A stretch of 55,143 nucleotides of DNA from NCBI GenBank assembly GCA_020445605.1, contig JAGRGH010000010.1, positions 1-55,143 on the forward strand, in the 5' to 3' direction. The stretch is from Chromatiales bacterium. GTDB taxonomy: Bacteria; Pseudomonadota; Gammaproteobacteria; JAGRGH01. Made by a program: the position numbers and the translations under genes. The notes under the pieces were generated by a model. That model was not told the DNA's origin, searched no databases, and worked only from the letters and a program-made list of their open reading frames with translations. Of this stretch, positions 27,290 to 45,641 are shown piece by piece (the first letter of the stretch is position 1; each line of letters begins with the position of its first letter).

Positions 27290-28705
27290 ATGGCATCGAA
27301 AGCGTATGACGCGGGCGTAAAAGAGTACCGCGAAATGTATTGGACGCCGGACTATGTCCCGCTCGATACGGACCTGCTTGCCTGCTTCAAGGTGACCGGC
27401 CAGCCCGGTGTGCCGCGCGAAGAGGTCGCCGCTGCGGTGGCAGCCGAATCCTCGACCGGCACCTGGTCGACGGTGTGGTCGGAACTGCTGACCGATCTCG
27501 AGTACTACAAGGGACGCGCCTACCGCATCGAGGATGTGCCGGGCGACAACGAGTCGTTCTATGCGTTCGTTGCGTACCCGATCGACCTGTTCGAGGAAGG
27601 CTCCGTGGTGAACGTGCTGACCTCGCTGGTCGGCAACGTGTTTGGCTTCAAGGCCCTGCGTCATCTGCGTCTGGAAGACATCCGCTTCCCGATTGCCTAC
27701 ATCAAGACCTGCGGTGGTCCGCCGAACGGCATCCAGGTGGAGCGCGACAAGCTGAACAAGTACGGCCGTCCGCTGCTGGGCTGCACCATCAAGCCGAAGC
27801 TGGGGCTGTCGGCGAAGAACTATGGCCGTGCCGTGTACGAATGTCTGCGCGGCGGTCTGGACCTGACCAAGGACGACGAGAACATCAACTCGCAGCCGTT
27901 CATGCGCTGGCGCGATCGTTTCGAGTTCGTCGGCGAGGCCATCCAGAAGGCGCAGGTCGAGACCGGTGAGCGCAAGGGTCACTACCTGAACGTCACCGCG
28001 CCGGACCCGGAACAGATGTACGAGCGCGCCGAGTTCGCGAAGGAGGTCGGTTGCCCGATCATCATGCACGACTTCCTGACCGGCGGTTTCACCGCGAATA
28101 CCGGTCTGGCGAAGTGGTGCCGCAAGAACGGCATGCTGCTGCACATCCACCGCGCCATGCATGCGGTCATCGACCGTCATCCGAAGCACGGCATCCACTT
28201 CCGCGTGCTCGCGAAGTGTCTGCGTCTTTCCGGCGGCGATCATCTGCACACCGGCACCGTGGTTGGCAAGCTGGAAGGCGACCGGCAGTCGACGCTCGGT
28301 TTCGTTGATCAGCTGCGTGAATCGTTCGTGCCGGAAGACCGCTCGCGTGGCGTGTTCTTCGATCAGGACTGGGGCTCGATGCCCGGCGTGTTCGCCGTCG
28401 CCTCCGGTGGTATCCACGTCTGGCACATGCCGGCGCTGGTGACGATCTTCGGCGACGACTCCTGCCTGCAGTTCGGTGGCGGCACCCAGGGTCACCCGTG
28501 GGGCAACGCGGCCGGTGCCGCGGCCAACCGCGTGGCGCTCGAGGCCTCCGTCAAGGCCCGCAACGAGGGTCGCGAGATCGAGAAGGAAGCACGCGACATC
28601 CTCACCGAGGCGGCGCGCAACAGCCCTGAGCTGGCGATCGCGATGGAAACCTGGAAAGAGATCAAGTTCGAGTTCGACACGGTGGACAAGCTCGACGTCG
28701 GCTGA
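27290..28705 (+). CDS. cbbL: RubisCO large subunit, form IA
   Basis: The 471-residue catalytic subunit that carboxylates ribulose-1,5-bisphosphate. The ATG at 27290 follows a CAGGAG site. Signatures seen: [16 protein letters not shown] with the carbamylated Lys194, the loop-6 region [26 protein letters not shown] and [16 protein letters not shown]. Sequence and length fit the carboxysomal form IA type, as does the csoS2 gene downstream. It is the first gene of the cso operon and works inside the carboxysome. It is strongly expressed in this context, consistent with the regular codon use. Confidence 0.99.
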
Positions 28706-28759: not shown

Positions 28760-29101
28760 ATGCCTAAATCACAGATGGGTGATTTCCAGACCGCGCAGAC
28801 GCTGGAAACCTTTGGCTTTCTGCCGAAGCTCTCGCAGGATGAAGTACTCGATCAGATCGCATACCTGATCGCGCAGGGCTGGACGCCGGCGATCGAGCAC
28901 GAGCATCCGAGCCGTTCGTTCAACCACTACTGGACCATGTGGAAGCTGCCGTTTTTCGGCGAGAAGGACCTCGGCAACGTCGTTGCCGAGCTGGAATCCT
29001 GCCACCGCGCCTATCCGGACCACCACATCCGGTTGCTGGGCTACGACAACTACACCCAGAGCCAGGGTGTCGCGTTCGTGGTCTACGAAGGCCGCGGGTA
29101 A
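28760..29101 (+). CDS. cbbS: RubisCO small subunit
   Basis: A 113-residue small subunit capping the L8 core. Typical segments are QTLETFGFLPKLSQDEVLDQ, AQGWTPAIEHEHP, YWTMWKLPFFGEKD, AELESCHRAYPDHHIRLLG and VAFVVYEGRG. It lies 54 bp after cbbL with an ACCGAGGA site and is cotranscribed. A diverged second small-subunit-like gene lies at 39547-39858 on the opposite strand. The two share QG..(P/C)..IEH and PDHHIRL. Confidence 0.99.
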   Translation: MPKSQMGDFQTAQTLETFGFLPKLSQDEVLDQIAYLIAQGWTPAIEHEHPSRSFNHYWTMWKLPFFGEKDLGNVVAELESCHRAYPDHHIRLLGYDNYTQSQGVAFVVYEGRG

Positions 29102-29192
29102 TCAGCGGCGGAGCGACAGCAAATGGTGGCAGCGGTCAGGCGCGTCCTGACCGTGCCGACCGGTGACTCAAACGATCCAGGCGAGTGAACAC

Positions 29193-31508
29193 ATGACACA
29201 GCAAAGCGGTGCCCAGGGACAAAGCGGACGCGCGTTGGCATTGGCCCGGCGCAAGGCCCTGTCCAGCGCCGGCAAGACGGCCGAGAAGTCGTCTGCGCCG
29301 GAACGTACGCGTGCGGACTCCATGAGTGGTTCCGGCGCCGCGCTGGTCCGCGTGGCGAGTGCCGCTACTTCGTCATCGGCGCCGAGCCGCGCGGGCGGCA
29401 GTGACTCGGGCTCCAGCCGCGCGGCGGCACTGGCCCGTCGCAAGGCGATGTCGAGCCGCGGCAAGCTGGCCGTGTCCAGTCAGGATCGTATTCGCGAGGG
29501 ATCACGTGCGCAGACCAAGGCCGCATCGCAACCCGCGCCGGCCGAAGCGCCGCGCAAGCAGGACGGCGATTGTGGCTGCGGCTGCAACGGTGCCGGCGAT
29601 TGCGGTGACCAGGCCGCGACGCGGACCGAATCCTCGGCCAGGCTCAACGGCCGTACGAAAACCCGTTCCGCCTCGCGCGGTAACGGCAGTAAGGATCCGG
29701 GCCGAGCGGCGTCCATGGCGCGGCGTCGTGCCCAGTCCGGGCGCGGCAAGGCGGGCCTGAGTACCTCGGGCATAACGACCGCGCAGACGGCACGTGCCGG
29801 CAATCCCGATCTGACCAGCCGCGAGCTGTCCAAGGCCCTGCGTGAGGCACGCAGCAAACGCGGCGGGGCGGGCCAGAAAAAGTCTGCACCGACCGGGCGT
29901 GTGCGTCCGGCACCCGAGTCTCGGACCCAGGCGGCTGCGCAGGACGCACCGTGGAAGGTCGGCGCCAGCCAGACCACCCGCGGCCAGACCGTGACCGGCA
30001 CGATGGTGGGTCGCAGCCGCGATGTGACCGGCGATGAGGCGAGCACCTGTCGTGCCGTGACCGGCACCGAATACATGGGCGCGGACATCTTCCGCGATTT
30101 CTGTCAGACCGAGCCGAAAAAGGGCTTCAACCGGGTCGGCGCCAGCGCGACTTCGCGCGGCAATACCGTGACCGGCAACAAGGTCGGTCGCAGCAATCGC
30201 GTGACCGGCGACGAGCCCGGCACCTGCAAGAAGGTCACGGGTACCGAATACGTCGGCGCCGGGCAGGGCGAGGCGTTCTGCGGCACGAAGGCCGCAGCTG
30301 GCCCGTCCAAGATCACCAGCGCCGAGACACGCGGTGGCAAGTCCGTGACCGGCAACAATGTCGGCCGTTCGAGCAAGGTCACCGGCGACGAGGTCGGTGC
30401 CGACCGCGCGCTGACCGGCACGCAGTACATGCAGCTCGGCGACGACCGCGCCCCGAACAAGGTCGGCACCAGCAAGACCCTGCGCGGCGGCGCCGTGACC
30501 GGCACGATGGTCGGGCGTCGCGAGCGCATGACCGGCGACGAGGCCGGCAGCTGCCGCAACGTCACCGGCGATGACTACATTGGCCAGGAACAGTTCGGCT
30601 CCTTCTGTGCGTCCACGCCGGCGCCGAAGGACCGCAAGGTGGGCGTGTCGGCCACGCCGAATGGCGAGCGTGTCACCGGCACCATGACCGGACGTGGCGA
30701 GCGCGTGACGGGTGACGAACCCGGCACCTGCAAGGCCATCACCGGCACGCCGTATGCGGGTGCCGAGCAATACGGCGCATTCTGCGAACCGGACAAGGCG
30801 AAGGCCGCCGCGGCGCGCATGCAGGACAGCAAGCGTCGCTTCGGTTCCGTGATGACCGGCCTGCAACCGTCGGTCCTCGGCAAGATGACCGGCGATCACA
30901 AGGGCGCCTGCGAACCTGTGACCGGCACGCCGTACGTGGGCTCCGACCAGGTCGCCGCCGCTTGTCCGGCCAGCGCCGCGGAACCGGGCAGCCCGGATTT
31001 CCCGCAGGCCATGGGTTCCACCCCGTGGGGCGCGTTCAGCGTCGAATCGCCTTCGCATGCCGCGACACCGCCGCAGATCGTCTCCGGCGTGACCGGCTCG
31101 GTGTACGAGGGCGGGGCGATCACCGGCCCGTTCGGCATGGCACCCGGCAAGGTGACCGGCACCGAAGAGGCGCGCTTTGGCCATCGTCAGACCCGCCGCG
31201 AAGCGGCGCCGGCCGAGGCGCCGATGATCGACGGACGCGTGAAATCGCGCATCACCGGCGAAGGTCAGGATGCGGGCTCGAAGATCACCGGCGACGACTG
31301 GGCCCGTGGCGACCGCGTGACCGGCACCGAGGGCAGGTCCGCCCTGGCCCGCAACCCGAGCCGCCGCGGCCCGGCGATGTCCATGGCCGCGGCCATGGCG
31401 CATGGTCGCCCGGACGACGTGCCGAACCCGGTCAGCAAGGTGACCGGCGGCAGTGGCAACACCGAAAAGGGCGCGCTGATCACCTATTCGGGTGGCGCGC
31501 GCGGCTAA
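29193..31508 (+). CDS. csoS2: CsoS2 carboxysome assembly scaffold
   Basis: A 771-residue disordered scaffold linking RubisCO to the shell. I choose ATG 29193 over GTG 29163. The N-region has four RubisCO-binding helix repeats (ALARRKALSSAGK, ALARRKAMSSRGK, SMARRRAQSGRGK, ALREARSKRG). A Cys-rich patch (DCGCGCNGAGDCGD) lies after the second. The middle has repeated VTG..VGR...VTGDE..TC..VTGT.Y units. The third unit, near 30310-30450, lacks the TC and FC cysteines found in the others. The C-region ends with the conserved ITYSGGARG-type peptide. Two AAA AAG sites (29880 and 30117) follow a G and could slip, relevant because some CsoS2 genes make short and long forms by -1 frameshifting. Here that is only a possibility. 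Confidence 0.97.
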   Translation: MTQQSGAQGQSGRALALARRKALSSAGKTAEKSSAPERTRADSMSGSGAALVRVASAATSSSAPSRAGGSDSGSSRAAALARRKAMSSRGKLAVSSQDRIREGSRAQTKAASQPAPAEAPRKQDGDCGCGCNGAGDCGDQAATRTESSARLNGRTKTRSASRGNGSKDPGRAASMARRRAQSGRGKAGLSTSGITTAQTARAGNPDLTSRELSKALREARSKRGGAGQKKSAPTGRVRPAPESRTQAAAQDAPWKVGASQTTRGQTVTGTMVGRSRDVTGDEASTCRAVTGTEYMGADIFRDFCQTEPKKGFNRVGASATSRGNTVTGNKVGRSNRVTGDEPGTCKKVTGTEYVGAGQGEAFCGTKAAAGPSKITSAETRGGKSVTGNNVGRSSKVTGDEVGADRALTGTQYMQLGDDRAPNKVGTSKTLRGGAVTGTMVGRRERMTGDEAGSCRNVTGDDYIGQEQFGSFCASTPAPKDRKVGVSATPNGERVTGTMTGRGERVTGDEPGTCKAITGTPYAGAEQYGAFCEPDKAKAAAARMQDSKRRFGSVMTGLQPSVLGKMTGDHKGACEPVTGTPYVGSDQVAAACPASAAEPGSPDFPQAMGSTPWGAFSVESPSHAATPPQIVSGVTGSVYEGGAITGPFGMAPGKVTGTEEARFGHRQTRREAAPAEAPMIDGRVKSRITGEGQDAGSKITGDDWARGDRVTGTEGRSALARNPSRRGPAMSMAAAMAHGRPDDVPNPVSKVTGGSGNTEKGALITYSGGARG

Positions 31509-36115: not shown

Positions 36116-37165
36116 ATGCCACCGTATAGCGAACAGACCTACACACCGCCGGCCGCGATGCCGGACTACCTGATCCGCTACGCAACGCTGCGCCAGTTGC
36201 AGGTATTCGAGGCGATCGTGCGTCTGGGCAGCTTCACGCGCGCCGCTGAGGAATTGTTTCTTACGCAGCCGACGGTCTCCATGCAGATCAAGAAGCTGGC
36301 CGATTCCATGGGGCTGCCGCTGTTCGAACACGTTGGGCGCAACGTGCGGCCGACCGAGGCGGGGCTGGAACTCTACGAATCCTGCCGGCGCATCTTCGAG
36401 ACGCTCGCGAATCTCGAGATGAAGATCGCCGATCTCAAGGGCATCAAGCGCGGTCGTCTGCGCCTTGGCGTGATCACCACCGCAAAGTATTTCGCACCGG
36501 AAATCCTCGGCGAGTTCTGCAAGCTCTATCCGGGCATCGACGTGGCGCTGAAGGTCTCCAACCGTGACCGCATCCTCGAGCGAATCAACGCCAACGAGGA
36601 CGATCTGTACATTCTCGGCCAGCCGACCGACCAGGTCGATGTCCAGATGTATCCGTTTGCCCCGAACCCGATGGTGGTGCTGGCGCCGCGCGATCATCCG
36701 CTGGTCGGCAAGAAAAACATTCCACTCGCGCGGCTGTCCGAACATCCGTTCATCCTGCGCGAACCGGGCTCCGGCACGCGCGACGCAACACTGCGTGCGT
36801 TCGATGCGATCGGTCTGCGGCCGAACGTGCGCATGGAACTCGGCAGCAACGAGGCCATCAAGCATGCCATCGTCGGCGGGCTCGGACTTTCCGTGCAGTC
36901 ACTGCACACGCTGACCCTGGAAGGCTCGGATGGACCACTCGCCATCCTGGATGTCGAGGGCTTCCCCATCATGCGCCAGTGGTACCTGGTGCATCCCAAG
37001 GGCAAGGAACTCTCGTTGGTCGCGAAGGCCTTCCTCGAGTATGCGCTCGAAGTCGAGCCACACATGCGCGAACGCATGCAGAACCTGTGGCCGAAGCTCA
37101 GCGGCCTGTTCAAGACGATGAAAAAGAGCGCGGCACCGCCGCGTAAGAAGGCTAAGGGCCAATGA
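36116..37165 (+). CDS. cbbR: CbbR: LysR-type regulator of CO2-fixation genes
   Basis: A 349-residue LysR regulator. The N-terminal winged helix-turn-helix is IRYATLRQLQVFEAIVRL to FTRAAEELFLTQPTVSMQI, and the effector domain follows from about residue 100 (LRLGVITTAKYFAPEILGEF). The RYATLRQLQVFEAI start is typical of CbbR. ATG 36116 gives a 14-residue leader that family members often lack. ATG 36158 is a good alternative. It lies downstream of and in the same direction as the operon, rather than divergent from cbbL as is common. Its candidate targets are the AT-rich regions before dabB, cbbL and the CbbS-like gene. Confidence 0.93.
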   Translation: MPPYSEQTYTPPAAMPDYLIRYATLRQLQVFEAIVRLGSFTRAAEELFLTQPTVSMQIKKLADSMGLPLFEHVGRNVRPTEAGLELYESCRRIFETLANLEMKIADLKGIKRGRLRLGVITTAKYFAPEILGEFCKLYPGIDVALKVSNRDRILERINANEDDLYILGQPTDQVDVQMYPFAPNPMVVLAPRDHPLVGKKNIPLARLSEHPFILREPGSGTRDATLRAFDAIGLRPNVRMELGSNEAIKHAIVGGLGLSVQSLHTLTLEGSDGPLAILDVEGFPIMRQWYLVHPKGKELSLVAKAFLEYALEVEPHMRERMQNLWPKLSGLFKTMKKSAAPPRKKAKGQ

Positions 37166-37408: not shown

Positions 37409-38044
37409 TCATCGACAAGTAAGCTCGCCGTCAGGTTCATGTCGGCATCGTAATCTTGGCAGGTCAGGAAAAGGTGGCTTCAGGCTCTTTCCCGCGAGAG
37501 ACCACTTCACATCTTTTGCCGGAAACCAGTCTCCGCCCGGATCATTGCACTGAATTGACGATTCCGGAGCTAGCTTCCCCCGCATGGTCGAGGGCCCAAA
37601 GTCTTTACAGCCGCCCTCCCACTGCCACCACCTCGTTAGAGGCATCAGCACCGCGCCTTCCCATGTTGGCAGTCGATAGGAGTAGTACTTGCCGTTGTAG
37701 TCCCGAATCAGTAGGTCGCGTTGCCCGGGCGTTAACTCTGATCGATCCGGAAAATCGTCTTGTCTGCTCTCCTTAAATTGGCGAATCATTACCTCGCCTG
37801 GGCGAAGTTCGGGGACCGGTGGAGTGCCTCCGGCGTGCCATGCTGCGCGGGCTTTTGACGATGGGAACAGGCTTCCAATGAATGGTGTGGCGGCGACTGC
37901 AGCACCAAAGACCGCCAGCATAATCAGGACAATACGTAACTTTCGCCGATAGCCAACTATGGCGAACGACCGCTGGACCAGTGTTTCGCTGCGCGCTAGC
38001 TGCGCTAGGTGGTCTAACGAACTTGGTTGTATTTGCCGCTCCAT
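37409..38044 (-). CDS. Rieske-subunit-like membrane-anchored protein lacking the cluster motif
   Basis: A 211-residue protein. One membrane helix near residues 36-58 (LRIVLIMLAVFGAAVAATPF) is followed by IGSLFPSSKARAA and then ELRPGEVMIRQF. This strongly recalls the N-terminal anchor and hinge of the ubiquinol-cytochrome c reductase Rieske protein (PF..SL.PSA.A.A, L.PG). The C-terminal domain has GGCKDFGP and IQCNDPGGDW where Rieske proteins carry CTHLGC and CPCHGS. The His ligands and one Cys of each box are missing, so a [2Fe-2S] cluster cannot be bound in the usual way. The N-terminal 30 residues are soluble, without a twin-Arg motif. Lower GC than neighbours suggests transfer. The similarity is by eye. 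Confidence 0.6.
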   Translation of the reverse strand: MERQIQPSSLDHLAQLARSETLVQRSFAIVGYRRKLRIVLIMLAVFGAAVAATPFIGSLFPSSKARAAWHAGGTPPVPELRPGEVMIRQFKESRQDDFPDRSELTPGQRDLLIRDYNGKYYSYRLPTWEGAVLMPLTRWWQWEGGCKDFGPSTMRGKLAPESSIQCNDPGGDWFPAKDVKWSLAGKSLKPPFPDLPRLRCRHEPDGELTCR

Positions 38045-38212: not shown

Positions 38213-38767
38213 CTAATGCCCGCGCATGCGGCGGGTCTTTTCCACCATGCGGTGGGTCGAGCGGTTGTTGTTGAACCGCGCGACCTGATGCAGCGGCACC
38301 CAGCGGATCTGGTGCGATTCGTCGTTGCCGGGAATCTCCAGGTCGTCATCCATCTCGATCAGAAAACGCACGTCGATGTGTTCGTGCCGCGGGCCAAGGT
38401 GGCTTCCCGGGATGGTGTGGATGTCCACGTCAAAGATGTCCGTGTCGACCAGCCGGATGTGTGACGGCTGCATGCCGGTCTCTTCCGAGGTTTCGCGCAG
38501 CGCCACCCGCAGGATGTCCGCATCACCGTCGGCATGACCGCCGGGCTGAAACCACTGGTCGTGCTTGCGATGGTGCAACAGCAGCACGCGGTCGCGACGC
38601 GGGTTCACGACCCAGGCCGAGCCGGTGACATGCGCGGGCCACAGATCGCGGTGAAAACAGTCTTCGTGCGCCTGCACGAACGCCCGGGCGCGGGACAGGT
38701 AGGCCGCCTCTTCCATGAAGCTGGTCGGGTGCGCGTCGAGCAGATCGAGCAGGTCCTGGCGGTGCAT
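38213..38767 (-). CDS. NUDIX hydrolase linked to csoS1D
   Basis: A 184-residue pyrophosphohydrolase. The NUDIX box reads GGHADGDADILRVALRETSE followed by ETG, with REx2SEE intact (the first box Glu is replaced by Asp/Ala). Additional features are a DQWFQPGG loop and the C-terminal HQIRWVPL strand. NUDIX enzymes cleave X-linked diphosphates; the substrate here is unknown. It starts 11 bp after csoS1D in the same direction, so it is cotranscribed and may act on a Calvin-cycle by-product, nucleotide or cofactor. This context role is inference. Confidence 0.9.
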   Translation of the reverse strand: MHRQDLLDLLDAHPTSFMEEAAYLSRARAFVQAHEDCFHRDLWPAHVTGSAWVVNPRRDRVLLLHHRKHDQWFQPGGHADGDADILRVALRETSEETGMQPSHIRLVDTDIFDVDIHTIPGSHLGPRHEHIDVRFLIEMDDDLEIPGNDESHQIRWVPLHQVARFNNNRSTHRMVEKTRRMRGH

Positions 38768-39546: not shown

Positions 39547-39858
39547 CTAGGCGGCGGCGGCGAGCGGGCTGTGGACGACCAACGAGAAGCGGCTGTGGAA
39601 GCTGAAGTCCTCGATATTCAGTCGTATGTGATGGTCGGGGTGCGCGGCAAGGCAGCGGTCAAGCTCGGTCACGAGCTTGTGGTCATCGCCGCTGTAACAA
39701 CATTCCTGCCCCCACTTCCGCCACGGCGTGAACCGTGCGCCCATCACGGGCGTGTGCTCTATGCAGATCACACAGCCCTGTCTCAAACATGATCCAATCG
39801 TCTCGAGCACCGAGTCCGCAACGGAATGAACGCCGGCACTGTGTTGATCAGGTCGCAT
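39547..39858 (-). CDS. Stand-alone RubisCO-small-subunit-like protein
   Basis: A 103-residue protein starting at 39858 behind GAAGGGG. It aligns with the CbbS of this window over its last 85 residues: QGCVICIEH versus QGWTPAIEH, PWRKWGQ versus YWTMWKL, TELDRCLAAHPDHHIRL versus AELESCHRAYPDHHIRL, and FSLVVHSP versus VAFVVYEG. It lacks the N-terminal strand region of CbbS. It has six Cys (SCLRQGCVIC, ECC, RC), unlike CbbS, which has one. It could compete for or bind RubisCO like the small-subunit-like domains of CcmM in beta-carboxysomes, or be a regulatory variant. It lies 153 bp upstream of csoS1D in the same direction. Homology is clear by eye, function is inference. Confidence 0.82.
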   Translation of the reverse strand: MRPDQHSAGVHSVADSVLETIGSCLRQGCVICIEHTPVMGARFTPWRKWGQECCYSGDDHKLVTELDRCLAAHPDHHIRLNIEDFSFHSRFSLVVHSPLAAAA

Positions 39859-41648: not shown

Positions 41649-44600
41649 ATGCGAAATTTCCACCCTGTCACTGGCTCGTTGCTGCTGGCAACGCTCGGTC
41701 TTGTCGGGACTGGTTCCCAGGCTGCCGGGAATCTCATCATCACCGAGATCATGTACAACCCGGCCAGTTCCGAAGACAACTGGGAATGGATCGAAATTCA
41801 TAACAACGGCGACATGACCGTTGATCTGGCCGGCTATGTCGTTGACGACAACAACGGGGTGGCTCATCTGGGCGCGAACATCGCCAGCGGTTCGGTGGCC
41901 GCCGGCGAGTCGGCGGTTCTCTACAACGCCGACGACGTCAGCGCGGCGAACTTCCAGGCGGCCTGGGGCACGGTTAATCTGATCGCCGTGACCAACTGGT
42001 CCGCGATGTCGCTGAACAATAGCGGTGACACCGTTGGCATCTGGAACAGTTTTGCCAACTACAGCGGCGACAGCGTGACCCAGGCCAATGTCATTGAGCA
42101 GGTGGTCTATGGCACCACTGCGCCATGGCCCGTCGATGATGGTGCTGGCTCCATCTACCTGACCGGTCTCGCCGCCGACAACAACAATGGCGCCAATTGG
42201 GCGCTGAGCACGGACGGTGCCAGCACGCCGGTCTTCGATGCCTACACCGCCGCTGCCGCTGGCGGTAACAGTGGAACCGACATCGGCTCGCCCGGGCTGT
42301 CGCCGCCGAAGCTCATCGTCACCGAGATCATGTACAACCCGGCCAGCGCGGAAGACAACTGGGAATGGATCGAGATCTACAACGCCGGTGGTTCCACAGC
42401 TGATCTGGCCGGCTATGTCGTTGATGACAACAATGGAGTGGCTCATCTGGGCGCGAACATCGCCAGCGGTTCGGTGGCTGCCGGCGAGTCGGCGGTTCTC
42501 TACAATGCCGACGACGTCAGCGCGGCGAACTTCCAGGCGGCCTGGGGCACGGTCAATCTGATCGCCGTGACCAACTGGTCCGCCATGTCATTGAACAATG
42601 CCGGTGACACCATCGGCATCTGGAACAGCTTTGCCAGCTACAGCGGCGACAATGAACTCCAGGCCAATGTGATCGAGCAGGTCGTCTATGACGATGAAGC
42701 GCCATGGCCCGTCGATGACGGCGCGGGCTCCATCTACCTGACCGGTCTCGCCGCCGATAACAACAATGGCGCCAATTGGGCGCTGAGCACGGACGGTGCC
42801 AACACACCGGTCTTCGATGCCTACACCGCCGCTGCCGCTGGCGGTAATAGTGGAACCGACATCGGCTCGCCGGGAACGCCCGTGGTGGTTCCGGCGCTCA
42901 GGATTCACGAGGTGCAGGGTTCGGGCGCGGGTGTAACCAGCCCGGGGACCGCCGTGATGATTGAAGGCGTGGTGATCGGCGACTACCAGGAGACCGACGA
43001 GCTGGATGGCTTCTTTGTCCAGGAAGAGGACGCCGATGCCGACGCCGATCCCGCCACCTCCGAAGGCATCTTCGTCTATTGCGGTGGCGCCTGCGGCACC
43101 TTCCCCGTCAGCGAGGGGCAGATCGTTGAGGTGACCGGCATTCAGGAAGAGTTCTTCGGCATGAGCCAGATCGACGTTTCCGGCGCTGGCGCCAATGTTG
43201 TCGTCACCGACGCCGGAGACAACCTGGGGCTGATCACGGCCACCACGGTCTCGTTGCCTGCCGCGGCCGGAACGGATCAGGCGGGAACGTTTGAAAATGT
43301 CGAAGGCATGCTGGTGACGTTCGATGTTCAGCTGACCGTGACCGAACTCTTCGAGCTGGCCCGCTACGGGCAGATCGTGCTCTCCGAGGACGGGAAGCTG
43401 CGCCACTTCACCGATCAGAATGCACCGGATGTCGCGGGTTATGCAGATCATCTGGCGGATATCGCGAAGCGACGGATCATTCTGGACGATACCAATGACG
43501 TCCAGAACCAGCCGGACAACGTTTTCCATCCGCAACCCGCTGGCTTCGCGGTGGACAACTTCATCCGTGGCGGTTACACGGTGGGCAACCTGACCGGCGT
43601 CATGCACTGGTCCTGGGCCGGCCTTGGCGGCACGGATGCGTGGCGAATCCGTCCGCAGCTCAGCAGCCCGGTGAGCTTCAATGCGGACAACGCCCGCCAG
43701 GCGACACCAACGGACGTGGGCGGGGACATCAAGCTCGCCGCGCTGAACCTGCTGAACTACTTCAGCACCATCGATGCCACCGCCAGCAACAGCATCGGGG
43801 ATTGCGGTCCCGGTCTCACACTGGATTGCCGCGGTGCCGACAGCGCGGCCGAGCTGACGCGCCAGACGCAGAAACTGACCAGCGCGCTGCTCGCCATGGA
43901 CGCTGATGTCGTCGGTCTGGTCGAGATCGAAAACAATGAAACGGCATCCTTGCAGGCGATTGTCGATGCGCTGAATGCGATTGCCGGCGCCGGAACCTAC
44001 GACTATGTCGACACCGGCTTCATCGGAGACGATGCCATCAAGGTCGGTTTCATCTACAAGCCTGCCGTGGTTGGCCTGTCGGGCGCCGCGGCAGTTCTCG
44101 ACACCGGGGTGGACGCCCGTTTTGACGACTTCCGGAACCGTCCGACGCTGGCGCAGACATTTGAAGTGGTCGATGTCGCCAACGACAGCTTTGGAGAAAA
44201 ATTCACTGCCGCAATCAACCACTTCAAGTCCAGAGGCTCGGCCTGTGACGATGTCGGCGATTTCGACGCCAACGATGGCCAGGGCAATTGCAATGGAACG
44301 CGTACCGGGGCCGCCGAGGCCCTGGTCGACTGGCTGGCCACGGATCCCACGGGCAGCGGCGACCCGGACTTTGTGATTCTGGGGGACCTCAACGCGTTTG
44401 CGATGGAGGATCCCGTTGCCGCGATCCTGGAAGGGGCCGATGACGTTTCCGGCAACAGCGATGACTTTGTGAATCTGATTGACCAGTTCCTTGGAGCCAA
44501 TGCCTATAGTTTTGTCATCGGCGGACAGTGGGGCTATCCGGACCACGCCCTTGCCAATGGACCACTGGCGGCACAGGTCACTGGAGTGACCCAATGGCAC

Positions 44601-45641
44601 ATCAATGCCGACGAGTCGAGTCTGCTGGACTACAACGACAAGGTCCTCGACACAGGAGAAGCGAGCTTCGAGGTCAAGCCCGGCACGAACACCCTGTTTG
44701 CGCCGGACCCGTATCGCGTCTCCGATCACGACCCGGTCATCATCGGCCTGAGCCTGTTCACTCCGGGCAACATCATCATTCGCAAAGTGACGGATCCCGC
44801 CGGAGAGCCCGGAGCCTTTGAGTTCACCGGTGCGGTCAGCGGCAACATCGGTCATGGGCAGCGGATCGTCATGAACGGCCTGCCACCCGGAAACCATGTC
44901 GTGACCGAAACCGATCCCGCACCATCGTTCGAGCTTACGGCGATCAGTTGTGACGATGGAAACAGTAGCGGCGACATCGGCGCGCGATCAGCCAGTATCA
45001 ACCTCGAGGAAGGCGAAACGGTAACCTGTACCTTCACGAATACCGTGGATGACGCGGACGGCATCGCTGCCGCGATCGAAGACAGCGTGCCTGGTTACAA
45101 CGGCTCCGCTCAGGGCGATGGCAACAACGACGGCATTCGCGACGTACTTCAGGGCAATGTCAGCTCGATTCAGGACCTCGCCAGCGGCTGCTGGTGGACA
45201 ATCGAGTCAGACGGCGAGGGCCATCGCGACGTTGCCACCGAAGCGGTTCCGGCGGATGCGCCGCCGGGCTATTACCCGTGCAACTTCATCAGCTTCACGG
45301 CCGATCTGGCCGTGGATCAGACCGAACTGCAAGTGAGCCTGTACCTTGCGCCGCAGAACGTCGCTATCGGCGGAGCGGTTAAGTTCAATCACGTCGCCGG
45401 TGAGTGGCAGGTGATCGGTGACGTCGATCAGGGCGGAGACAAGACCGTCATCCATTACTCCGTGACGGACGGCGGACCGTTCGATGGAGACGGGACGGTG
45501 AACGGCCAGATCGAAGACCCGGTCGGGCCGATCGTCCAGGCGCGCCCGATTCCAACCATGTCCCTTGCCGGCTTGGCGCTATTGATCGGGCAATTCGCAT
45601 GCCTGCTGATGCTGATGGGTCGCAGGCAGCGTAGACGATAG
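41649..45641 (+). CDS. Large extracellular nuclease with two lamin-tail domains and IPTL-like anchor
   Basis: A 1330-residue secreted protein. Order: signal peptide (SLLLATLGLVGTGSQAAG); two nearly identical lamin-tail domains (about 27-215 and 219-410); an OB-like nuclease-associated region (about 415-690); an endonuclease/exonuclease/phosphatase domain (about 690-1035) with VGLVEIENNE, NHFKSRGSACDD, FVILGDLNAF and SDHDPVIIGL; an SpaA-like beta domain (GNIIIRKVTDPAGEPGAFEF); a choice-of-anchor-U-type domain (DADGIAAAIEDSVPGYNGSA); and a C-terminal PIPTMSLAGLALLIG plus Arg tail, an IPTL-CTERM-like anchor. It resembles ExeM/NucH nucleases that degrade extracellular DNA. All catalytic motifs are intact. 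The duplicated lamin-tail unit has a period of 576 bp. Confidence 0.9.
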   Translation: MRNFHPVTGSLLLATLGLVGTGSQAAGNLIITEIMYNPASSEDNWEWIEIHNNGDMTVDLAGYVVDDNNGVAHLGANIASGSVAAGESAVLYNADDVSAANFQAAWGTVNLIAVTNWSAMSLNNSGDTVGIWNSFANYSGDSVTQANVIEQVVYGTTAPWPVDDGAGSIYLTGLAADNNNGANWALSTDGASTPVFDAYTAAAAGGNSGTDIGSPGLSPPKLIVTEIMYNPASAEDNWEWIEIYNAGGSTADLAGYVVDDNNGVAHLGANIASGSVAAGESAVLYNADDVSAANFQAAWGTVNLIAVTNWSAMSLNNAGDTIGIWNSFASYSGDNELQANVIEQVVYDDEAPWPVDDGAGSIYLTGLAADNNNGANWALSTDGANTPVFDAYTAAAAGGNSGTDIGSPGTPVVVPALRIHEVQGSGAGVTSPGTAVMIEGVVIGDYQETDELDGFFVQEEDADADADPATSEGIFVYCGGACGTFPVSEGQIVEVTGIQEEFFGMSQIDVSGAGANVVVTDAGDNLGLITATTVSLPAAAGTDQAGTFENVEGMLVTFDVQLTVTELFELARYGQIVLSEDGKLRHFTDQNAPDVAGYADHLADIAKRRIILDDTNDVQNQPDNVFHPQPAGFAVDNFIRGGYTVGNLTGVMHWSWAGLGGTDAWRIRPQLSSPVSFNADNARQATPTDVGGDIKLAALNLLNYFSTIDATASNSIGDCGPGLTLDCRGADSAAELTRQTQKLTSALLAMDADVVGLVEIENNETASLQAIVDALNAIAGAGTYDYVDTGFIGDDAIKVGFIYKPAVVGLSGAAAVLDTGVDARFDDFRNRPTLAQTFEVVDVANDSFGEKFTAAINHFKSRGSACDDVGDFDANDGQGNCNGTRTGAAEALVDWLATDPTGSGDPDFVILGDLNAFAMEDPVAAILEGADDVSGNSDDFVNLIDQFLGANAYSFVIGGQWGYPDHALANGPLAAQVTGVTQWHINADESSLLDYNDKVLDTGEASFEVKPGTNTLFAPDPYRVSDHDPVIIGLSLFTPGNIIIRKVTDPAGEPGAFEFTGAVSGNIGHGQRIVMNGLPPGNHVVTETDPAPSFELTAISCDDGNSSGDIGARSASINLEEGETVTCTFTNTVDDADGIAAAIEDSVPGYNGSAQGDGNNDGIRDVLQGNVSSIQDLASGCWWTIESDGEGHRDVATEAVPADAPPGYYPCNFISFTADLAVDQTELQVSLYLAPQNVAIGGAVKFNHVAGEWQVIGDVDQGGDKTVIHYSVTDGGPFDGDGTVNGQIEDPVGPIVQARPIPTMSLAGLALLIGQFACLLMLMGRRQRRR
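41731..42880 (+). repeat. Direct tandem duplication of a 576-bp lamin-tail-domain unit
   Basis: The ATCATGTACAACCCGGCCAG at 41748 and 42324 mark equivalent points, 576 bp (192 codons) apart. The two units are almost identical at the DNA level over long stretches (for example the region around GCGGCGAACTTCCAGGCGGC), with scattered mostly synonymous changes. This points to recent duplication or ongoing conversion within the nuclease gene. Confidence 0.9.

Follow-up and report, generated by a model that had tools for sequence, protein, structure and literature searches.

A stand-alone RuBisCO-small-subunit-like protein encoded with csoS1D in alpha-carboxysome loci of some Gammaproteobacteria

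The SSL gene and its neighbours

The window, the whole stretch of 55,143 nucleotides that was analysed, carries an alpha-carboxysome (cso) supercluster and, on the opposite strand, three genes for a Nudix hydrolase, the shell protein CsoS1D and a stand-alone RuBisCO-small-subunit-like protein, here called SSL. L004 denotes the closest orthologous locus, from the gammaproteobacterial MAG HKST-UBA186. The relevant features are:

27290-28705, strand opposite to SSL: cbbL, directly before cbbS
28760..29101, forward strand: CbbS, the genuine small subunit (form IA) encoded by the cso operon, next gene after cbbL; 32% identity to SSL
29163..31508, forward strand: CsoS2 scaffold, from translation and synteny
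36116..37165, forward strand: CbbR-type LysR regulator where the cso supercluster ends; orthologues lie beside csoS1D or SSL in related loci
38213..38767, reverse strand: Nudix hydrolase (PF00293, 59.9 bits); same order in L004
38779..39393, reverse strand: csoS1D, BMC-T shell protein (PF00936 in two stretches, CcmP-type NCBIfam match); 94% identical in L004
39394..39546, reverse strand: spacer of 153 nt separating SSL from csoS1D; its folding is more stable than that of shuffles (z -3.15)
39547..39858, reverse strand: SSL, 103 aa with six cysteines; identified by Pfam RuBisCO_small, a model match to RbcS/SSUL, a 58% identical orthologue and dN/dS

The SSL reading frame runs from an ATG at 39858 to a stop codon at 39547-39549, and a plausible Shine-Dalgarno sequence, GAAGGGG, lies about 9 nt 5' of the start. 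The 103 residues and six cysteines of the original prediction are present, and its ribosome-binding site is plausible. A longer form starting at ATG 39921 (124 aa) was rejected because the upstream DNA is unconserved and the L004 gene begins at the equivalent ATG. The length of the frame was also rejected as evidence for a gene; in this GC-rich region an equally long stop-free frame, of at least 131 codons, appeared in 47% of composition shuffles. Because such a length is expected by chance, the case for SSL rests on homology and conservation.

SSL matched the Pfam family PF00101 (RuBisCO_small) at 40.5 bits and E 2.9e-10, above the gathering cutoff of 27 bits, and no other Pfam domain scored above its cutoff. 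It is 32% identical to the window's own CbbS over 82 residues (E 9e-7) and matched RbcS chains in the PDB at E 1.5e-7, which bears out the similarity to CbbS first noticed by eye. An HMM built only from CbbS sequences scored SSL at 36.4 bits and the best shuffle of the same protein at 9.2 bits (2,000 shuffles made, 1,588 scored).

The L004 protein is 58% identical to the window SSL. In both loci the genes run SSL-csoS1D-Nudix and face cbbR together with the cso operon, and conservation of the ORF in relatives with the same locus, on which the original prediction depended, is seen here in one relative. DNA identity is 68% over the SSL ORF, 43% in the 3' spacer and 47% in the upstream flank, so that conservation ends at the gene edges. 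Third codon positions hold 46 of the 97 nucleotide changes and the dN/dS is 0.15-0.23. SSL diverges faster than csoS1D, with its 94% identity. Judged from these substitutions, SSL is under purifying selection, faster-evolving than csoS1D yet constrained.

The claim that SSL is encoded with csoS1D was also upheld: the two genes share a strand and keep their order in L004, and no terminator-like site was found on the SSL strand of the 153-nt spacer. The csoS1D start (MIKLRTYV) was set by comparison with L004. SSL, csoS1D and, as third gene, the Nudix hydrolase probably form one transcription unit. An RNA element in the spacer was rejected, as it has no Rfam match and is unconserved (43% identity to L004). 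Two further reading frames lie nearby. A 211-aa ORF at 37409-38044 on the reverse strand, between cbbR and the Nudix gene, has no Pfam match and is missing from L004. On the forward strand at 41649-45641, beside the carboxysome region, is a gene for a large protein of 1330 aa that combines two lamin-tail domains with an endonuclease/exonuclease/phosphatase domain.

A small family in alpha-carboxysome genomes

A three-member SSL profile, searched against 369 gammaproteobacterial genomes, found three further SSLs above the CbbS background. The resulting six-member profile scored SSLs at 134-143 bits in the same genomes and all other small subunits at 56 bits or less, and then picked up four unseen SSLs in related families (80-126 bits). 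The family thus has ten members: the window, L004 and eight more from profile searches. Among the form IC CbbS matches at 45-56 bits, those fetched as loci were checked for a nearby cbbL and set aside. Six SSL relatives tested against PF00101 scored 33-48 bits. By sequence, the family profile is nearest to CbbS (56 bits), followed by CcmM (30 bits) and the Rca SSUL (18 bits).

In a maximum-likelihood tree the ten SSLs form one clade apart from CbbS (support 97/97; 98/85 in the six-member tree), a grouping of long branches that could partly reflect long-branch attraction. The automatic IA/IC labels in the ten-SSL tree are wrong for some form IC rows, and the SSL clade is independent of these labels. 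A rough signature of the wider family is DW[VA]I.I[EQ] ... W..W ... [IV]R[LI].A[ED]K..P, the last part of which reads IRLNIED[FY]S.HSRF in the window and L004. In a wider sample of 249 Pseudomonadota genomes SSL was found only in the window, and viral contigs held no SSL relatives. The family is rare, apparently undescribed and seen solely in alpha-carboxysome-building genomes.

Co-occurrence with csoS1D, proposed earlier as a check by profile search, was found in all ten SSL genomes. In an even sample of the class, SSL is present in 5 of 67 genomes with csoS1D and in 0 of 302 others (Fisher p 1.7e-4); the association is weaker within genomes with a detected CbbS (p 0.016). Presence in 5 of 67 csoS1D genomes, with a patchy distribution within families, means that SSL is dispensable in most alpha-carboxysomes.

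The association with cso genes is supported more strongly by physical linkage than by co-occurrence. Seven of the ten SSL genes lie in or beside the cso supercluster (window, L004, G035, G131, G123, G634 and G626). The other three lie away from it, elsewhere in the genome in G241 and G625 and on a contig with no nearby cso gene in G640. SSL adjoins csoS1D in the window, L004 and G035. In G131 the order is cbbR-SulP-SSL, with SSL following SulP where the cso cluster ends; SSL adjoins cbbR in G123 and G634, with SulP one gene away; and in G626 csoS1D-Nudix-SulP-SSL-cbbL-cbbS-csoS2 lie on one strand. Since the neighbours vary among csoS1D, SulP, cbbR and cbbL, SSL is tied to the alpha-carboxysome supercluster and not to csoS1D alone. 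The link to csoS1D suggested by the original prediction holds and widens to this supercluster in general. SSL is a descendant of a RuBisCO small subunit and part of the alpha-carboxysome gene set in some Gammaproteobacteria.

Several other arrangements were seen in these loci. A SulP-family gene (sulfate permease plus STAS) lies in the cso supercluster of G131 (L192/L200), G626 (L207), G123 (L194) and G634 (L205); the assignment was tested by Pfam in G131, G626 and G123 and made in G634 by similarity in place and sequence start. In G035 (L092) the csoS1D-SSL pair is flanked by two cbbR-type regulators on the same strand. G168, a genome with no csoS1D match, has an orphan small subunit resembling form IC, about 105 aa long, whose N-terminus is intact and whose gene has no cbbL beside it (G168:C2:39011-39331; L198:5011-5331). 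The gene lies about 1 kb upstream of csoS2; the cso operon there has no cbbLS, these genes being about 15 kb beyond it (L199). In an alpha-carboxysome locus this is a stray small subunit of a second kind, independent of SSL. Tandem pairs of CsoS1D-like genes, each 34-44% identical to the window's CsoS1D, occur at G006:C6:38881-41125 and G213:C82:486-2709, and at G041:C31:9140-9678 csoS1D lies in two frames, from a frameshift or an assembly error.

Predicted fold, conserved residues and tails

SSL is predicted to have the RbcS fold. The AlphaFold model, built from an alignment of three sequences (mean pLDDT 74, pTM 0.64), has the order helix-strand-strand-helix-strand-strand. Foldseek matched it to RbcS of CsoS2-bound RuBisCO (E 3.6e-6) and to CcmM SSUL1 (E 2.9e-5), and VIA gave Z scores of 12.9 for the Rca SSUL, 12.6 for H. 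neapolitanus CbbS and 11.2 for CcmM SSUL1. Both methods group the model with small subunits of RuBisCO and with SSUL domains and favour neither clearly. The original prediction had been staked on a structural match to RbcS, and one was obtained for the protein alone (VIA Z 11-13).

SSL and CbbS (PF00101) have this fold in common, and about 80 residues can be aligned, from helix A to the last strand. The alignable part begins at CbbS helix A, confirming that SSL lacks the N-terminal segment. Ten residues are nearly universal in CbbS: S9, L11, P12, Y25, E36, W48, L53, P54, F56 and E67 (PMC9164163). The window SSL keeps three of these (E34, W46 and E65, in its own numbering) and has lost seven; S9, L11 and P12 lie in the N-terminal segment, absent from SSLs, and S23, Q51, E52 and C54 stand at the positions of Y25, L53, P54 and F56. 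It also keeps C69 and R79. Of 19 positions with conservation of 85% or more across 83 CbbS sequences, six are kept in most SSLs. In H. neapolitanus CbbS the loop D94-S99 with Y96 contacts CsoS2 and CsoSCA peptides (PMC10614612); in SSLs this docking loop is replaced by the most SSL-specific conserved stretch (E83, S89, R90). In addition, a true cbbS directly follows cbbL, but the window cbbL is about 11 kb from SSL. As the N-terminal segment and most residues of the seated subunit are lost, SSL should not occupy the CbbS seat.

The cysteines of the window SSL are C24, C29, C32, C53, C54 and C69, and all but C53 have a counterpart at the same position in L004. Almost every CbbS also has C69. 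The extra cysteines C24, C29, C32 and C54 are found only in the window and L004 and are absent from the other eight SSLs. The redox cysteine pair of CcmM SSUL1, C261-C279, aligns to W49 and C69 of SSL, and a CcmM-type disulfide was rejected on this alignment.

The SSLs of G035, G241 and G640 are 153-161 aa long with a hydrophobic C-terminal stretch, and for the two of these tails that were computed the Kyte-Doolittle value over 19 residues is about 2.0. By hydropathy, this C-terminal helix is probably a membrane anchor. Other tails occur in the SSLs of G123, G634, G625 and G626, and those of G131, L004 and the window are tail-less.

Known RuBisCO-docking systems and a proposed role

In the usual account, beta-carboxysomes hold RuBisCO by folded small-subunit-like (SSU-like) modules (CcmM) and alpha-carboxysomes by motifs that are short and disordered (CsoS2, CsoSCA). 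On assembled RuBisCO, the SSUL modules of CcmM and Rca occupy the groove between CbbL dimers. SSL resembles the SSUL of CcmM (M35/M58) in having an RbcS fold with no N-terminal segment (Z 11.2, rmsd 2.6 over 86 residues of SSUL1) and in being linked to carboxysomes. It differs in being a single free domain in an alpha-type locus, with no gamma-carbonic-anhydrase domain or tandem SSUL repeats, in lacking the SSUL1 cysteine pair and in standing nearer to CbbS in sequence. As a 103-aa single domain scoring 18.8 bits against an NCBIfam CcmM cutoff of 550, SSL was rejected as a CcmM. The cyanobacterial Rca SSUL (6has, 6z1g) is the best VIA match (rmsd 2.5 over 85 residues), tied with CbbS chains; however, SSL is separately encoded, its sequence similarity to Rca is weak and it has no AAA+ domain by Pfam, on which ground it was rejected as an Rca. 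The CsoS2 N-peptide and the CsoSCA N-terminal domain share the gene cluster with SSL, and the same RuBisCO surface is proposed for SSL, but theirs are short motifs in disordered regions whereas SSL is a folded RbcS-like domain.

SSUL modules bind assembled RuBisCO at an outer site (PMC8580825). Because SSL keeps the small-subunit core, has lost the parts that seat CbbS and travels with RuBisCO-packing genes, we infer binding at such a site. The proposal, given about an even chance of being right, is that SSL works as an accessory factor of SSU-like type, docking on assembled RuBisCO at a site other than the small-subunit seat and modulating recruitment or tethering of the enzyme. SSL would dock on the outside of CbbL8S8 as a single-domain factor, like the SSUL of CcmM and Rca. 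Tailed SSLs, with Pro-rich or membrane-anchoring extensions, would keep RuBisCO or pre-carboxysomes in a different place, and the window SSL, which has no tail and would be made together with CsoS1D, would serve as a monovalent cap or would modulate how the scaffold docks during assembly. CcmM SSUL1 has a basic loop, DKRRFRT, that SSLs as a family do not conserve, so docking in the manner of CcmM finds no support at the level of residues. A free SSU-like adaptor, one of three readings put forward earlier, is the best-fitting class of function for a stand-alone RbcS-fold protein that is linked to csoS1D and conserved in a relative.

The other two readings fared less well. SSL might conditionally replace some CbbS copies in CbbL8S8, altering kinetics or blocking CsoS2 docking; its fold and clear CbbS ancestry agree with this, as does the changed loop used by CsoS2, which would alter docking. 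A condition-specific subunit is nonetheless quite unlikely with the N-terminal segment gone, seven of ten near-universal residues lost, no cbbL adjacent in the window, and long tails or probable membrane helices on its relatives. A redox sensor, in which the Cys-rich proteins of the window and L004 switch their affinity for RuBisCO via a disulfide or metal like the CcmM SSUL, appears distinctly improbable. Five cysteines do coincide in the two orthologues, and SSUL modules are redox-regulated in beta-carboxysomes (PMC8580825). But C69 is common to nearly all CbbS, the extra cysteines are missing from eight SSLs and the CcmM switch is not reproduced; in addition, C32 falls within a predicted strand (30-37) that C29 borders, a poor geometry for a CxxC disulfide.

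The tails and neighbours of SSL raise another explanation, in which the SSL family would connect RuBisCO or pre-carboxysomes with the membrane or with a transporter of inorganic carbon, and the window SSL would do so via a partner. The hydrophobic helices of G035, G241 and G640 speak for it, as do SSL genes directly after SulP in G131 and G626 and one gene from it in G123 and G634. Such a tether is an unlikely function for the family as a whole: the window and L004 SSLs have neither tail nor adjacent SulP, the transmembrane assignment comes from hydropathy, and SulP is a transporter by family assignment. A decaying cbbS paralogue or functionless chance ORF would account for the fast divergence, the patchy distribution and the insignificance of ORF length. 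It is very improbable, however, given the dN/dS, the kept position in the orthologous locus, the above-cutoff Pfam match and ten members in one clade tied to cso loci.

A 2026 review (PMC12918739) calls the assembly of RuBisCO in bacteria with alpha-carboxysomes relatively unknown and lists acRAF, CbbQ/O, McdAB, Dab and Ham1 as peripheral proteins, with no SSU-like protein among them. CcmM and Rca already provide examples of SSU-like docking modules; in the literature searched (open-licence papers), no description was found of a free, single-domain one in cso loci.

With SSL, a free protein of folded SSU-like type occurs in alpha-carboxysome loci, across the usual division between alpha- and beta-carboxysomes. 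It is conceivable, if unlikely, that alpha-carboxysome bacteria independently evolved an SSUL system of their own, a free RuBisCO-docking module derived from a small subunit and in some species membrane-anchored or SulP-adjacent, which would position RuBisCO or pre-carboxysomes or gate CsoS2 loading. If SSL binds RuBisCO, it would be a natural small adaptor for carboxysome engineering, and its tailed forms a tether.
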